In this document: positions 1,271 through 6,193 of the stretch, in pieces | Layout of the letters: every line of letters begins with the position of its first letter | Numbering within the stretch: the first letter of the stretch is position 1 | Assembly (NCBI RefSeq): GCF_003610295.1 | Contig: NZ_RAPV01000004.1 | Span: forward strand, 1-64,000 | Length of the DNA stretch: 64,000 nt | Reading direction: 5' to 3' | DNA from: Paraburkholderia sp. BL23I1N1 | GTDB taxonomy: Bacteria; Pseudomonadota; Gammaproteobacteria; Burkholderiales; Burkholderiaceae | Notes under the pieces: model-generated | Told to the model about the DNA's origin: nothing | The model's database searches: none | What the model saw: the letters and a program-made list of their open reading frames with translations, nothing else | Program-made: the position numbers and the translations under genes

Positions 1271-4200
1271 TTAGCGATTGATGTCGGGTGCATCCGGGTC
1301 AGCGGGCGGTATTGCGTCCGGGTCCGGGTTGATCGTGTCGTCCGGGACGGGCGCCGGCGGATTGCGCACGGCATCGCGCAACTCGTCGCGCTCCCTCGCT
1401 TCGCGCTCACGCTGCGCTGCCCGACGTTCGATCGCCTCGGCATCAAGCTCCGCGAGCCGCACCCGCCGGATGCTCTCCAGTTCGGGTTGCTCGAACACGA
1501 TACGCATGCGTGTATCGGCCGCAACGCGCGCCGCGGCCGCCTGGAAATCCTCGGGTCCGGACAGCGACAGCGTGCCGCCGAATTTCTGCTGCGCGAAGCG
1601 CAACGCTACCTCAATCGCCTCGCGCCCGCTATCCCACAGCCGCAACGTGCGGCCCTCGTCGACGAGGAACGTCGCCCCGTTCTTCCGGTAGTCGACCTCG
1701 CCACTGGCCCTTACCTCGTATGTAATCGCCGGGCCCGCGTAAATGATCTCGTTGCGCTCGTTTGCAGTCGGTCGCGTCGCATGCGATGCCGCGCTGACCG
1801 TGACTGCGCGCTCGTCGCCGGCGCGCTTCTCCCATAGACGGATCTGTTGCATCCGTCGCAGCTCACGCAGCGCCCGTTCGTCGCCTTCCTGCGCGCGCTC
1901 CTGCAGGAAATCGCGATACTGGTCCGTCAGTGGCCGACTGGCGACGCCCTTCAGCGCCTCCCGTTCTTTCGCGATCTGCACACGCAGCACGGCCTCTGCC
2001 TCAAGGCGTGCAACGCGTGCCGCAGACAGCTGCTCGCGACGCTGACCGCTGGACAGGTCCATGCGATCGCCGAGCGCGCTACGCGCACTATAGAACGCCG
2101 ACCTGATCGTCTTTCGCCGCTCGTTTTCCTGAGCGGCCTGCGCATCCCACGCGTGGCGAAGCTGGGTCCGGTAGACAGATCGCCACTGCTGGAAGTCGCC
2201 CCATAGATCCCGCTCGGGCGTGCGCCGTGACGCGTGTTCCGGATCGTGTCCGGTCTGCGCCCGATACGTCTCGCGCAGCAGCTGCGCGGCCTCCTCCCAT
2301 GACAGGTTCATCTCCTTCGTCAGAAAATCCGACACGCTCAGATTGCGTGAGCCGGCCCGGATCCTGTCGCCGCCATCCGCGCCCTTGCCGATCGAATACT
2401 TTTCGACGATGAGGCCATGCGAGTGAGCGAGCGCGGCCAGCAGCCGACCCGCGTCGAGTGTTGCGCGGATCTCGGCGAACTCGTCCCGCTCCCGGGCCTG
2501 TCGCACGCTTCGCCCCTCGGACAGGTCGCGCGCGAGCTGGTCGCGAACGGTATCCGCTGCTCGTCCCGTCGACGCGCGGGCACGCGCATTGAAATCGCTC
2601 ATCGCAGTCTTCGGCATCGGCGCATCAGATGCGCGGACCTCGAACGGTAATGATTCGATCGCATCGAACGATTGCACATCGGCGAGGCTCCGAATTTGTT
2701 CCCGCAGCCCGAACCCGCCAGGCAGCCGGCCGCCGCTCAGAGCAAACGGCTCCCGCGAGCCGAACGGTCCGCCGGCCCACATGAATTTCCCGGCACCGGT
2801 GCGCGTGAGGCGCGATCGCTCAGCTGCGTCTGCCCGGTCCCATGCGACAAACATGCGATCCACTATCGCTTTCCATTCGGGCTCGTCGGCCGATCTCTCA
2901 ACGTCATTGGACTCGCCCGACCATCGCCAGCGATCACCGGTCCCGCCGTAACGGCGACCGCCATCAAACTCGCCATCGGCTCCTTGGCGCCACCGTGACC
3001 GCAGCACCGGATTGTCTAGCTGTTCTCTTCCCGCTCGCTCGCGATCGCCAGACCATCGCAATGCGTCAATTCGTTCGGCTTGCTGGTTTCCCAGCTCCAG
3101 TAATGCATCAGCCGGCAGAAGCACTTGACGTCGCGCGGCGTCGCCATCCACACCGCGGCCGGACACGCCATGCACACGGTAGGCGGATTGGGACGGCGCG
3201 CCGGATCGATCGAAGCGAGCGTCAAGGTCGTGATCCGCTCCGGCTCGCCATCGCCGTGTGATTTCGTGGTGCGCGCGCTCGAGCTCGCGCCACCATTGCT
3301 GCGCCTGCCCTGCCCCTTCCGGTTCTCGTCCGGCGCCGCGTGCTCGTGCCCGCTCCGGTGCCCGCTCTCCTGCTCCGGCGGTTCCCAGTCGCCTCCAATC
3401 TCGCCAGTCGCCGGATCGATCGTGGGGTCGTCGTGTGTGCTCATTGAGCCCTCCTGTTGCGTCGTAGAACCGCTGTTCGCGGTGGTCGAGAATGCGTCGC
3501 TGCTCGTCTGGCGACGCGGCCTGATACGTCTTGTAAAAGCTGCTACCGCTGTTCAGATACTTGATTTCGCGCGCGCGTGTGTCGTGCCAAGCGCCGAGCA
3601 CATCTAGATAGATCGGTGGCGTGTCGCGCGGCACGCCAGGCTCGACATACTGGGCATGCACATTCGATTCGAGCGCCTCACGCTTGGCCGTAGCATCGAG
3701 CTCGATGAACTCGCGCGAAAACACGAACTCCTTGAGGTTGACACCCTTCGCCGCGCCCGCCGGCTTGACGTTTTCGTACTCCGACTCCCGGCCGGCGTTG
3801 CGTGTACGTGTCTCGCCGTACTCCGTCAGCAATACCCGGAAGTCGTCGTACCGCGTCACATCACGGGTCATCACCGCCTCGAGGATCGAGGCCTTCAGCT
3901 CGCGGTTCGCCCCTTCGAACACGTCGCCCTTGTACCGGCTGATCATTTCGGACGCGTCGGTGAACTGCACCCGCCGGTTGTCCTTCGGGCTCGCGAGCCC
4001 GTATTTCGCGTTGATGTGCTCCTGGAACGCGTCAACGAAGCGCGTGTTCTGGTCCACCTTCCCGAACGGATCAAGCCGCCGGCCTGTCACAAGATTTATC
4101 TCGGGAATCACCACGTGCACGTGTACCTTGCGCTCGACTGGCTCGCCCGTCTTGCGGTCCGCATAACTCTTGATACGCGGCACGTGAGCTTCGGCGTAGA

Positions 4201-4489
4201 AGTTGTACTCATCGCGGCGATACGCGGCAAACGCGAACGCCTCGAACTCCCGAACAATCTCACCTAAGAGCTCACGCGATACCTGGTCTTCCTTGAACGA
4301 CATCGTGACATTCAGGTAGCGCTCGGCGTCCGTGTCGATCGACTGGATGATGTCGTTCGTCAGATCGAGATCGCCGGCGAGTATCACGCGCTCGTCCATC
4401 TCGTCGCGCTCCATCTCGCGACCCTGCTTCTGGCCTTTCTCCAGATACGCCTTGATGCCGTCGTGGTAGCCGCGTACGCGTATGAGCAC
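1271..4489 (-). CDS. Large relaxase / mobilisation nuclease with C-terminal LPD7-like domain
   Basis: Protein of 1072 aa expected to nick one strand at oriT, stay bound to the 5' end and pilot it into the recipient. The N-terminal 300 residues are the relaxase core: HVPRIKSY (His102) and KVHVHVVIPEINL (His123 and His125) can supply the metal-binding histidines, and Tyr8 or Tyr89 are possible nucleophiles. Residues of about 905-1000 (YEVRASGEVDYRKNGATF and onward) resemble the LPD7 domain found in TraI/MobA proteins. Residues 349-491 are low complexity, rich in Arg, Gly, Ala, Asp and Trp; another gene is encoded there in a different frame. The start is GTG at 4489, six bases after AGGGG and 3 bases after the preceding stop. 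MOB class is uncertain, probably MOBP-like. Confidence 0.9.
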   Translation of the reverse strand: MLIRVRGYHDGIKAYLEKGQKQGREMERDEMDERVILAGDLDLTNDIIQSIDTDAERYLNVTMSFKEDQVSRELLGEIVREFEAFAFAAYRRDEYNFYAEAHVPRIKSYADRKTGEPVERKVHVHVVIPEINLVTGRRLDPFGKVDQNTRFVDAFQEHINAKYGLASPKDNRRVQFTDASEMISRYKGDVFEGANRELKASILEAVMTRDVTRYDDFRVLLTEYGETRTRNAGRESEYENVKPAGAAKGVNLKEFVFSREFIELDATAKREALESNVHAQYVEPGVPRDTPPIYLDVLGAWHDTRAREIKYLNSGSSFYKTYQAASPDEQRRILDHREQRFYDATGGLNEHTRRPHDRSGDWRDWRRLGTAGAGERAPERARARGAGREPEGAGQAQQWWRELERAHHEITRRWRAGADHDLDARFDRSGAPSQSAYRVHGVSGRGVDGDAARRQVLLPADALLELGNQQAERIDALRWSGDRERAGREQLDNPVLRSRWRQGADGEFDGGRRYGGTGDRWRWSGESNDVERSADEPEWKAIVDRMFVAWDRADAAERSRLTRTGAGKFMWAGGPFGSREPFALSGGRLPGGFGLREQIRSLADVQSFDAIESLPFEVRASDAPMPKTAMSDFNARARASTGRAADTVRDQLARDLSEGRSVRQARERDEFAEIRATLDAGRLLAALAHSHGLIVEKYSIGKGADGGDRIRAGSRNLSVSDFLTKEMNLSWEEAAQLLRETYRAQTGHDPEHASRRTPERDLWGDFQQWRSVYRTQLRHAWDAQAAQENERRKTIRSAFYSARSALGDRMDLSSGQRREQLSAARVARLEAEAVLRVQIAKEREALKGVASRPLTDQYRDFLQERAQEGDERALRELRRMQQIRLWEKRAGDERAVTVSAASHATRPTANERNEIIYAGPAITYEVRASGEVDYRKNGATFLVDEGRTLRLWDSGREAIEVALRFAQQKFGGTLSLSGPEDFQAAAARVAADTRMRIVFEQPELESIRRVRLAELDAEAIERRAAQREREARERDELRDAVRNPPAPVPDDTINPDPDAIPPADPDAPDINR
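3016..3444 (-). CDS. Cysteine-rich protein encoded in another frame inside the relaxase gene
   Basis: An open frame of 142 aa lies wholly within the relaxase gene, on the same strand but in a different frame. Its ATG at 3444 is preceded by AGGAGG with 5-base spacing, one of the best ribosome sites in the operon. The N-terminal 75 residues are polar and acidic (MSTHDDPTIDPATGEIGGDW). The C-terminal half looks like a small zinc- or cluster-binding domain with Cys91, Cys94, Cys108, Cys110 and Cys129, and aromatic residues between (CFCRLMHYWSWE). Over the same bases the relaxase frame encodes only a biased linker, which suggests that the overlapping frame is the constrained one. Gene-within-relaxase arrangements are known (traH inside traI of RP4). 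The function is unknown; a transfer accessory role is inferred from position only. Confidence 0.72.
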   Translation of the reverse strand: MSTHDDPTIDPATGEIGGDWEPPEQESGHRSGHEHAAPDENRKGQGRRSNGGASSSARTTKSHGDGEPERITTLTLASIDPARRPNPPTVCMACPAAVWMATPRDVKCFCRLMHYWSWETSKPNELTHCDGLAIASEREENS

Positions 4490-4492
4490 GTC

Positions 4493-4732
4493 TTACCCCT
4501 TCGCCTGACGGTCGGCGAGCCAGCACTCTGCACCTTCGATGCGCAAAAGCAGCGTGCTACGCACGATCGACGGCAAAACATGACGTGCCGCCTCGACAGA
4601 CGCCCGCGCGTCATCACAGTCTGTCTGTGTCAGCCTTCGCGAACCCTCAAGGTTCCGATCGAAGTGCAGCTTCGTCTCCAGTTCGATGACGGCCATGATC
4701 GCCGCCTCTTTCAAGGCCATTCTTATCGGCAT
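4493..4732 (-). CDS. Small mobilisation-operon protein
   Basis: A 79-aa hydrophilic protein between mobC and the relaxase. Its ATG at 4732 overlaps the mobC stop (TGATG), and it ends 3 bases before the relaxase GTG, so translation is probably coupled throughout. A second start at codon 13 has a better ribosome site (GAGG 9 bases upstream) and would give 67 aa. The sequence is mostly predicted helix (VIELETKLHFDRNLEGSRRL) with no motif I know. Its place between the two relaxosome genes suggests an accessory role in mobilisation, but this is inferred only from context. Confidence 0.65.
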   Translation of the reverse strand: MPIRMALKEAAIMAVIELETKLHFDRNLEGSRRLTQTDCDDARASVEAARHVLPSIVRSTLLLRIEGAECWLADRQAKG

Positions 4733-5097
4733 CAGTCAACCTTCGTCAGGGTGGCCTTGAGGTATTGCCCGATCAGTTGCAGTTGCGTGAGCAGCTGCTC
4801 GTAGGTCGCCTCCGAAAGCGCCCCGCGGACATGCTCCGAATTCGCACGGTGGGCAATCTGGTTCAGGTTGTTGCTGGTCTTGTTGAAGATGTAGAGCAGC
4901 CGCCTGCGGTCCCCGCTGGCCACCGGCCGCGCGATCACCTGCGTACGGTTGGTGAGCACCGCCTGACGGAAAAATTCCGATTGGGTCATCCCGCTTTGTG
5001 CCACCTTGGCGAGGTACGCCGCGCGATCCGTCTCCGACAGCCGGAACGCGATCGGCTTGCCCAGCCCTGCCCCGTCACCGTTCTTTTTGCGAGGCAT
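4732..5097 (-). CDS. mobC: MobC-like relaxosome protein
   Basis: A 121-aa protein with the features of plasmid mobilisation protein MobC: a basic N-terminus, a ribbon-helix-helix-like segment (GKPIAFRLSETDRAAYLAKV, then SGMTQSEFFRQAVL) and the C-terminal helix motif YIFNKTSNNLNQIAHRAN that is characteristic of MobC. Such proteins bind near nic and help the relaxase open oriT. The ATG at 5097 overlaps the stop of the upstream gene; a GTG one codon earlier is also possible. It is the second gene of the minus-strand mobilisation operon, just downstream of the proposed oriT. Confidence 0.85.
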   Translation of the reverse strand: MPRKKNGDGAGLGKPIAFRLSETDRAAYLAKVAQSGMTQSEFFRQAVLTNRTQVIARPVASGDRRRLLYIFNKTSNNLNQIAHRANSEHVRGALSEATYEQLLTQLQLIGQYLKATLTKVD

Positions 5098-5351
5098 CAC
5101 CAGAGCCCTGTCGAGCGGCCACCATCGATTCCGGCGCCGACCATCGAAAACGAATCACCGTCGTCGATCGGATGCGCGCGAAACTCATATTCCGGCCAGC
5201 GCAACTCACACGCGCGCAGCGCGCGCATCGCCTGGTCACCCGTCATCGGCTGCGTATAACCCGCCCACGGCAGATAGCGCGGCTCGCTGCCGTGCTCATC
5301 GGCACGCGCGCCAACCACAAGCTGGATCACCCATTCGCTGTTCGGAATCAT
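5097..5351 (-). CDS. Hypothetical first gene of the mobilisation operon
   Basis: An 84-aa acidic protein starting at ATG 5351 after a clear GGAGGT ribosome site with 6-base spacing. Its stop overlaps the mobC start. I do not recognise the family. The sequence contains tryptophan-rich segments (MIPNSEWVIQLVVGARADEH and LRACELRWPEYEFRAHP) and a Gly/Asp-rich end. It is the gene nearest the oriT candidate and heads the operon, so an oriT-linked role is plausible, but nothing in the sequence shows it. Confidence 0.65.
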   Translation of the reverse strand: MIPNSEWVIQLVVGARADEHGSEPRYLPWAGYTQPMTGDQAMRALRACELRWPEYEFRAHPIDDGDSFSMVGAGIDGGRSTGLW

Positions 5352-5465
5352 CGCCGGACCTCCATGATGTTGATCGCGTATTCAATACGCATACCAGGCA
5401 GTGCTTAACGTCGGCGGCGGAGCTACCGACGCAGTAGACGCGGGCAATAGTTCGCGTCGGGGTTT

Positions 5466-5486
5466 CTAAGGGGCTCGGCCCCTTAG
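5466..5486. repeat. Perfect 9-bp hairpin in the oriT candidate
   Basis: CTAAGGGGC and GCCCCTTAG flank the loop TCG. No T-tract follows on either strand, so it does not look like an intrinsic terminator; a relaxosome binding dyad is more likely. Confidence 0.6.
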
Positions 5487-5497
5487 GCACACTATAT

Positions 5498-5524
5498 TTT
5501 ACGGAACGCGTAGCGTTGCGTAAA
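5498..5524. repeat. Imperfect 27-bp dyad in the oriT candidate
   Basis: Outer arms TTTACG and CGTAAA and inner arms AACGC and GCGTT are separated by single G residues, with GTA at the centre. It lies 12 bases from the first hairpin, between the two divergent transcription units. Confidence 0.55.
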
Positions 5525-5692
5525 CATATACGTCGTGCCTCGCCGCACTACCGGAACGTCTCCGCACGGCTCAAGTATCACACACTTGCTCCACCAATAC
5601 CCCTTCCCACCCCTCTTTTATCCCGCTTGCATGACGCAATACCCCTTTGATATGGCAACATTACCCCATACCAGAACCCAGCCGCTCTTCCC

Positions 5693-6193
5693 ATGCCCAA
5701 TATCGACACCGCGCGAGCCGTGGCCCTGCTCTCGCCCGAGCACGACACGCCCGCTAACCGACCCGAGGCTGCACGCCTCGCTGAACTGATCGACCATATC
5801 GAGGCGGCAATCGCTCGGGGCGTCTCTCGCGAAGAAGTGCTCGCACGCCTCCACGAAAGCGGCTTTACCATGAGCCTGCGCACTTTCGACAAGGCGCTTT
5901 ACCGTATTCGCAAGCGGCTCGGCAAACCCCAGCGCCGAACCACACCGCCCCGTCAGTCGGCCCCTGCGACACCAGGACCCCGCGTTCCGGATGACAGCGG
6001 CAAGGCCACGACCGAAACCCTCTCCAGTGGTCGCATCATCAAAACTACTGAGCAGTTGCGACGGGAAAATCCCACCATGCCCGGCACGCAGATCAGCAAG
6101 CTCTACGCGCAGCAGTATGCCGATCCCGTCGTGACGTCCGAAGAACTTGAGGAAATGAAACGCAAATACAATCCCCCGCTGCTCAAGCGCTGA
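5693..6193 (+). CDS. Plasmid protein with helix-turn-helix-like N-terminus
   Basis: A 166-aa basic protein transcribed away from the mobilisation operon. Residues of about 28-75 (IEAAIARGVSREEVLARLHE followed by GFTMSLRTFDKALYRIRKRL) read as a helix-turn-helix-like DNA-binding unit. A Pro/Ala-rich linker and a helical C-terminus (EELEEMKRKYNPPLLKR) follow. Its position directly beyond the oriT candidate is that of TraK- or MobI-like accessory proteins in other plasmids, so it may bind oriT or repress the divergent operon. That is inference; the family is not securely identified. The ATG at 5693 has a weak ribosome site (CTCTTCCC precedes it). A plus-strand terminator lies about 220 bases downstream. 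Confidence 0.7.
   Translation: MPNIDTARAVALLSPEHDTPANRPEAARLAELIDHIEAAIARGVSREEVLARLHESGFTMSLRTFDKALYRIRKRLGKPQRRTTPPRQSAPATPGPRVPDDSGKATTETLSSGRIIKTTEQLRRENPTMPGTQISKLYAQQYADPVVTSEELEEMKRKYNPPLLKR

Follow-up and report, generated by a model that had tools for sequence, protein, structure and literature searches.

A putative TraH-like gene nested within a non-IncP relaxase gene of Paraburkholderia sp. BL23I1N1

Small proteins of the relaxosome can be encoded inside the gene of the relaxase itself; MobB of RSF1010 is such a protein, encoded in another frame inside mobA. The nested traH gene of the IncP plasmids is likewise already known. In the passages of the two sources available, TraH of RP4 is reported to stabilise the complex of the relaxase TraI and the oriT-binding protein TraJ (PMC7314908), and the TraI-TraJ interaction is described as stabilised by TraH (PMC10521675). 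TraH of F and TraH of pIP501 have the name alone in common with IncP TraH and are set apart by their descriptions: in the excerpts available, the former acts in pilus extension and the latter is VirB8-like. A description of TraH relatives nested in other kinds of relaxase was not found in the literature searched, which consisted of open-licence papers only. Here, we describe a TraH-like frame within a relaxase gene of a different type and compare it with its relatives in plasmids and genomes.

The DNA analysed is a stretch of 64,000 nucleotides from Paraburkholderia sp. BL23I1N1 (hereafter the window), which sits on a contig of 265,864 bases in a 9.1-Mb genome; the contig also has a coupling protein gene and a VirB4-type gene. 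On the minus strand, positions 1271..4489 encode a MOBP-type relaxase of 1072 amino acids with a GTG start and a C-terminal LPD7 domain, as identified from the open reading frame and Pfam. The N-terminal, catalytic part (host residues 1-340; 3470..4489, minus strand) gave a weak match to PF03432, under the cut-off, and its approximately 340 residues are homologous to other relaxases, while the LPD7 domain (host residues 922-1009; 1463..1726, minus strand) matched PF18821 with an E-value of 6.3e-17. A gene for a NikA/MobC-like relaxosome protein is found upstream of the relaxase gene on the same strand (4732..5100, minus; PF21983, E 1.5e-11; PF05713, E 7.1e-7). No clear oriT was seen in 5340-5720, where a single 9-nt inverted repeat has its arms at 5466-5474 and 5478-5486. 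Downstream of the relaxase, at 707-1180, a bacterial PH-domain protein (PF03703) is encoded, and a PH-domain gene likewise follows in two other loci (L007, L009).

A preliminary description of this DNA, made from the sequence, had claimed that a frame of 142 amino acids lies inside the relaxase gene in another frame, preceded at a distance of five bases by AGGAGG, with five cysteines in the order C-x2-C ... C-x-C ... C, and that the relaxase frame over the same bases is a linker biased towards Arg, Gly and Ala. Each of these features was indeed found. The frame (3016..3444, minus strand) starts with an ATG at 3444, has its stop at 3016 and lies with its whole length within the relaxase ORF; the Shine-Dalgarno-like AGGAGG occupies 3450..3455 (minus strand), five bases before the ATG; the cysteines are residues 91, 94, 108, 110 and 129, that is, C-x2-C-x13-C-x-C-x18-C; and Arg, Ala and Gly make up 19%, 15% and 12% of the relaxase frame across the overlap, which has neither Lys nor Met nor Cys. 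ORF length alone proves nothing, as ORFs of 160 and 203 amino acids also occur on the opposite strand of the same GC-rich gene. What lifts the embedded frame beyond chance is its conservation, as seen in the homologs, in a codon-position signature and in the AGGAGG ahead of the ATG.

A protein search with the embedded protein gave 24 relatives, 22 of which were called on contigs of less than 3 kb, and a profile search of proteins gave 106; a scan of public genomes with a close alignment (A1) yielded 21 loci. The search of the embedded frame against plasmids, which had been proposed as a check, was run with tblastn against 72,556 plasmid records and returned 909 records at E <= 0.01. Nine of these cover at least 80% of the query; the remaining ones, among the matches listed, mostly match the C-terminal half of the query alone. 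Three plasmid relatives are 81-84% identical to the embedded frame over nearly its full length. Several matches, among those listed, lie under features annotated both as traI and as traH, and in the IncP plasmid pAKD17 the match falls within the annotated traH. The window protein and TraH of pAKD17 share 46% identity over 65 residues (E 2e-23, calculated for this single comparison). RP4 traH had been cited as a precedent for the nested frame, but the relationship goes further than that, the window protein being homologous to IncP TraH; R751 and pAKD17 stand for IncP in our sequence comparisons.

The homology is concentrated in a conserved core with the pattern C-x2-C...W...C-x-C...C-D (3022..3234, minus strand), which matched the family profile with an E-value of 4.9e-34, the window core itself being among the 19 rows from which that profile was built. 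In the alignment of 19 diverse copies, C91, C94, W99, C108, C110, C129 and D130 are invariant; in an alignment of 39 rows all but C108 still are, and C108 is nearly so. An IncI2 copy, outside the alignments of 19 and 39 rows, has four cysteines only. The cysteine signature recurs in other relaxase classes, including DNA of 27% and 37% GC. The embedded proteins tested matched no family of Pfam or NCBIfam above the cut-off, a PHROGs search with three proteins gave nothing useful, and 12 of the 15 inner branches remained unresolved in a tree of the core across hosts.

Which of the two frames is under selection can be read from the codon positions, since positions 1, 2 and 3 of an embedded codon fall on positions 2, 3 and 1 of the relaxase frame, respectively. 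Twenty relaxases were used, that of the window and those of the loci L064-L082; L083 (no profile match) and L084 (truncated) were left out. In the relaxase domain (340 codons), variable columns at host positions 1, 2 and 3 number 112, 96 and 297, and in LPD7 (88 codons) 41, 26 and 83. Over the core (host residues 416-478, 63 codons) the numbers are 39, 9 and 11; for position 3, core versus relaxase domain, Fisher's test gave p = 2.6e-28 with columns taken as independent, which is not fully true. Pairwise changes over host residues 421-480 were 33/6/0 in one set of four sequences and 77/3/4 in another, separate set of four, and in each 60-codon segment clear of the core the pairwise counts are highest at host position 3. 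No clear signature of this kind is seen across the N-terminal half of the embedded frame, where 28, 27 and 30 of 41 codons vary at the three positions in the 20 relaxases. Since changes in the core fall at relaxase position 1, the wobble position of the embedded frame, and hardly at position 3, it is the embedded protein and not the relaxase that is protected there: over the core, selection guards the embedded frame while the relaxase frame drifts. The preliminary description had held that a conserved relaxase linker opposite a non-conserved embedded frame would speak against the gene. The opposite was seen when codon-position conservation was followed along the related relaxase genes, as the signature switches at the embedded core.

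Sets from other hosts gave the same picture with varying strength. Embedded position 3 is the most variable in seven of seven sets, two of which are IncP and one of which has just three changes; its share is 46-54% of the changes in the three most diverged host sets, which is weak, and 90% in one, which is strong. The relaxase frame has its own constraint. Stops in the host frame are absent from 15 of 16 representatives, and the Campylobacter representative has only the host's own stop, although random synonymous recoding of the 16 embedded genes produces a mean of 2.2 to 13.7 host-frame stops. For the embedded protein of the window, a mean of 5.0 stops in the relaxase frame is expected and none is observed. 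The relaxase frame is kept open, and the earlier claim that the relaxase tolerates any sequence at this point has to be corrected accordingly.

Of the 19 loci L064-L082, 17 have AGGAGG ahead of the ATG at the same five-base distance (counted by eye); the exceptions are L073, with GGAGG before the ATG, and L081, with neither. Shine-Dalgarno-like sequences also precede possible embedded starts elsewhere, namely AAGGAG in R751, AAAGGAG in Moraxella and Campylobacter and GGAGGG in a MobQ plasmid; no clear one was found before the embedded start in L021, L061 and L062. Because AGGAGG also encodes relaxase residues, its conservation is supporting evidence only for the start.

All 60 profile-matched loci have the embedded frame nested within a same-strand ORF of 300 codons or more and always in the +1 phase, that is, the first base of the embedded codon is the second base of the relaxase codon. 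These loci represent 58 distinct places, L001, L028 and the window being a single place, and several IncP copies are nearly identical. All 60 hosts match an already identified relaxase host (some rows match themselves), with 17 hosts and that of the window identified by Pfam. The hosts comprise IncP TraI, LPD7-type, helicase-fused and DUF3363-type relaxases, MobA/MobL (MOBQ), TrwC (MOBF) and a Campylobacter relaxase. In IncP TraI, the order is Relaxase, TraI_middle, LPD7, TraH and TraI-like_C; in the LPD7-type host, as in the window, it is catalytic part, TraH and LPD7; and in the DUF3363-type host TraH comes before the relaxase match. Small plasmids carry the MobA/MobL host (L026, found in 13 records at >=90% identity), and a second, MobQ-like host (L042) is 49% identical to it. 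The TrwC and helicase host of Moraxella (L020) is a single lineage of 15 records at >=99% identity, and in the Campylobacter relaxase (L027) TraH overruns the host stop by 7 bases. A relaxase-helicase host is found in L062 (1337-5650), a Polaromonas protein of 1437 amino acids that is annotated as 'AAA family ATPase' and looks like a fused relaxase-helicase that ends in a weak KfrB match. Here TraH is nested ahead of the weak KfrB match, after a segment homologous to residues 614-866 of the window host; in the related relaxase-helicase L127 it directly follows the catalytic part. TraH lies before LPD7 in the window family and after LPD7 in IncP, and a relocation of TraH relative to homologous flanks is thus visible. 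A very divergent nested TraH-like ORF (E 1e-14) is present in the IncI2 plasmid pIPCEC48_2 (L061, 3974-4279), in an LPD7 relaxase of 1437 amino acids.

Thirteen further places were inspected. In L119-L122, L124 and L127, TraH lies within a known host, again in the +1 phase, L128 has a nested partial match in a host of no recognised class, and the TraH copies of L123, L125 and L126 are frame-broken or partial; the weak matches L129 and L130, which lack a relaxase host that can be recognised or the C-x2-C motif, were left out of the counts, and L131 gave no match. Re-examination of earlier loci showed L060 to be nested, L084 to be nested and truncated, and L083 to have no match. An intact free-standing TraH was not seen among the places whose DNA was examined.

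For all 19 proteins examined, silent codon choice can clear the phase that is used of every stop; the unused phase keeps at least one unavoidable stop in 11 of the 19 proteins at full length and in 5 of the 19 cores. In 13 of 16 cases, the mean number of stops under random synonymous coding is lower in the unused phase, and in L013, L017, L020 and L062 some random draws are open in the used phase but never in the unused one. Stop-codon geometry explains the constant phase in part, and in-frame exchange that passes on a two-frame cassette is a possible source of it. It is conceivable, if somewhat doubtful, that TraH is a portable gene residing within others, and that it has settled in at least three relaxase classes (MOBP, MOBQ and MOBF), at several places relative to homologous flanks and with the +1 phase shared by all intact places examined. 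Nesting itself would then be selected, the phase would be inherited by in-frame exchange of a linker cassette that codes two ways, and the relaxase-frame peptide would perhaps have a second job.

Among 398 Burkholderiaceae genomes, 36 have a match to the core and 27 a window-type relaxase domain (E <= 0.001). At E <= 1e-30 the window-type relaxase was found in 27 places, 26 of them with an adjoining match to the TraH core (compared by eye; L123 is frame-broken); the lone exception is a contig of 4,543 bases (G185:C213) with a stop inside the relaxase match. In a second sample of 398 genomes across the whole phylum, five have a match, including the genome of the window, and the same five were obtained with a second profile. 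TraH was not found in NikB of R64 (MPF_I), nor in the split relaxase of pXap41 (MPF_T) from X. arboricola, an LPD7 relaxase (L024, 3001-5384) that the annotation divides into two proteins, each in a frame of its own. A mating-pair type is given by PLSDB for 16 of the 27 TraH-bearing plasmid records fetched, and it is MPF_T in every case. Annotation in these 27 records lists the relaxase alone in 23, nothing in one and the small gene in three (L018, L022 and L025), as counted from the PLSDB gene table, which is itself incomplete. In the Pseudomonas loci L022 (3959-4318) and L025 (4004-4423) the embedded ORF is annotated as hypothetical, and the catalytic part of the relaxase is unannotated though its frame is fully open.

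A chance ORF in GC-rich DNA, whose conservation merely follows the relaxase frame, would fit the base composition of the gene and the ORFs of 160-203 amino acids on the other strand. It is refuted by the codon-position counts, both pairwise and in the 20 relaxases, with changes in the core at the embedded wobble position and hardly at relaxase position 3; together with the same cysteine signature in other classes of relaxase, some of them in DNA of 27% and 37% GC, this leaves it practically no credence. That the family is real and the window copy a decaying remnant is very improbable: broken or truncated copies do occur elsewhere (L084, L123, L125 and L126), but the frame of the window is intact and close to its three plasmid relatives over nearly full length, and the coupling protein and VirB4-type genes are on the same contig. 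A frameshift could also fuse the N-terminal domain of the relaxase to TraH, and the embedded frame is indeed open far upstream, for 219-270 codons, in L009, L015 and L016. In Moraxella and Campylobacter, however, the frame opens just before the start (86 amino acids, 82 from the ATG, and 90 and 89, respectively), in both cases with AAAGGAG upstream, and we consider such a fusion quite unlikely.

Another reading accepts the TraH homology and gives the protein a different main task: it might, for instance, link the relaxase to the coupling protein as an adaptor, sense metal or redox state, or travel to the recipient along with the relaxase. TraH accompanies very different relaxases (MOBP, MOBQ and MOBF), and the partner common to all these cases may therefore be something other than the relaxase; moreover, all 16 typed records are MPF_T and R64, an MPF_I plasmid, has no TraH in NikB. 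A single MPF_I plasmid is, however, no statistical test, pXap41 is MPF_T and without TraH, and the role reported for RP4 TraH in the passages available is that of a relaxosome stabiliser (PMC7314908, PMC10521675). We consider a different main task rather unlikely.

We consider it likely that the embedded frame is a gene with a function and belongs to the IncP TraH family as a divergent member, that its protein is made from the relaxase mRNA and has a five-cysteine metal-binding core, and that this protein holds the relaxosome together. The homology, the selection on the embedded frame, the nesting and the upkeep of both frames are seen in the sequences; the translation start, the metal binding and the role in the relaxosome are inferred. 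The suggestion that a real transfer-type protein is encoded here is likewise supported by the homologs, the homology to traH and the codon-position signature, all of them properties of sequences. Translation would proceed from the relaxase mRNA in the +1 frame, via a ribosome-binding site and ATG of its own. The C-terminal 70 residues with the five cysteines probably bind a metal (zinc) and would be the working domain, the N-terminal half being variable. Two structure predictions had low pLDDT values (57 and 59), and nine PDB profile matches were weak and all to ribosomal protein bL33 (best E 0.006); since the models are poor, metal binding is suggested by the cysteines and the weak bL33 matches. 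By analogy with RP4 TraH, the protein most likely stabilises the assembly of the relaxase with its NikA/MobC-like partner at the origin of transfer. It is the role reported for RP4 TraH, along with the NikA/MobC-like gene upstream of the relaxase, that leads us to regard the embedded protein as this plasmid's stabiliser of the relaxosome, most likely a metal-binding relaxosome accessory protein.

Beyond the known case of IncP, relaxase genes of several quite different kinds conceal small cysteine-rich kin of TraH in the same manner. Gene callers seldom allow a gene within a gene, and a conserved family of conjugation proteins is therefore largely invisible. If the nesting is kept across relaxase classes, it offers a natural test case for the persistence and movement of overlapping genes. 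It may then also be a common weak point of plasmid transfer, considering that the tblastn records include many E. coli, Klebsiella, Neisseria and Campylobacter.

Among the systems that already carry a name, the Pseudomonas proteins P0082, P0087, P0093, P0094 and P0096, called 'Relaxosome component, NikC family' in their source records and there only, were matched by the family profile; the other Pseudomonas loci, L022 and L025, have the frame nested in an LPD7 relaxase. A paper describing a 'NikC family' relaxosome component was not found in the open-licence literature searched, and the one paper with nikC uses the name, in the part available, for a nickel transporter. The host in the window is of the LPD7 type and differs from IncP TraI: three IncP-like TraI proteins have Relaxase, TraI_middle, LPD7 and TraI-like_C, whereas in a Pfam search of the window relaxase TraI_middle and TraI-like_C were not found, LPD7 was above the cut-off and Relaxase below it. 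The position differs as well, as the embedded gene covers host residues 348-491 in the window, right after the catalytic part, and residues 515-646 in pAKD17 and R751, between LPD7 and the C-terminal domain. With a pI of 5.4, the window protein is less acidic than TraH of R751 (4.3). Despite these differences, TraH of the IncP plasmids compared, R751 and pAKD17, has a homologous core with all five cysteines and is nested in the relaxase gene in the same +1 phase, and the frame described here is a TraH homolog in a non-IncP relaxase.
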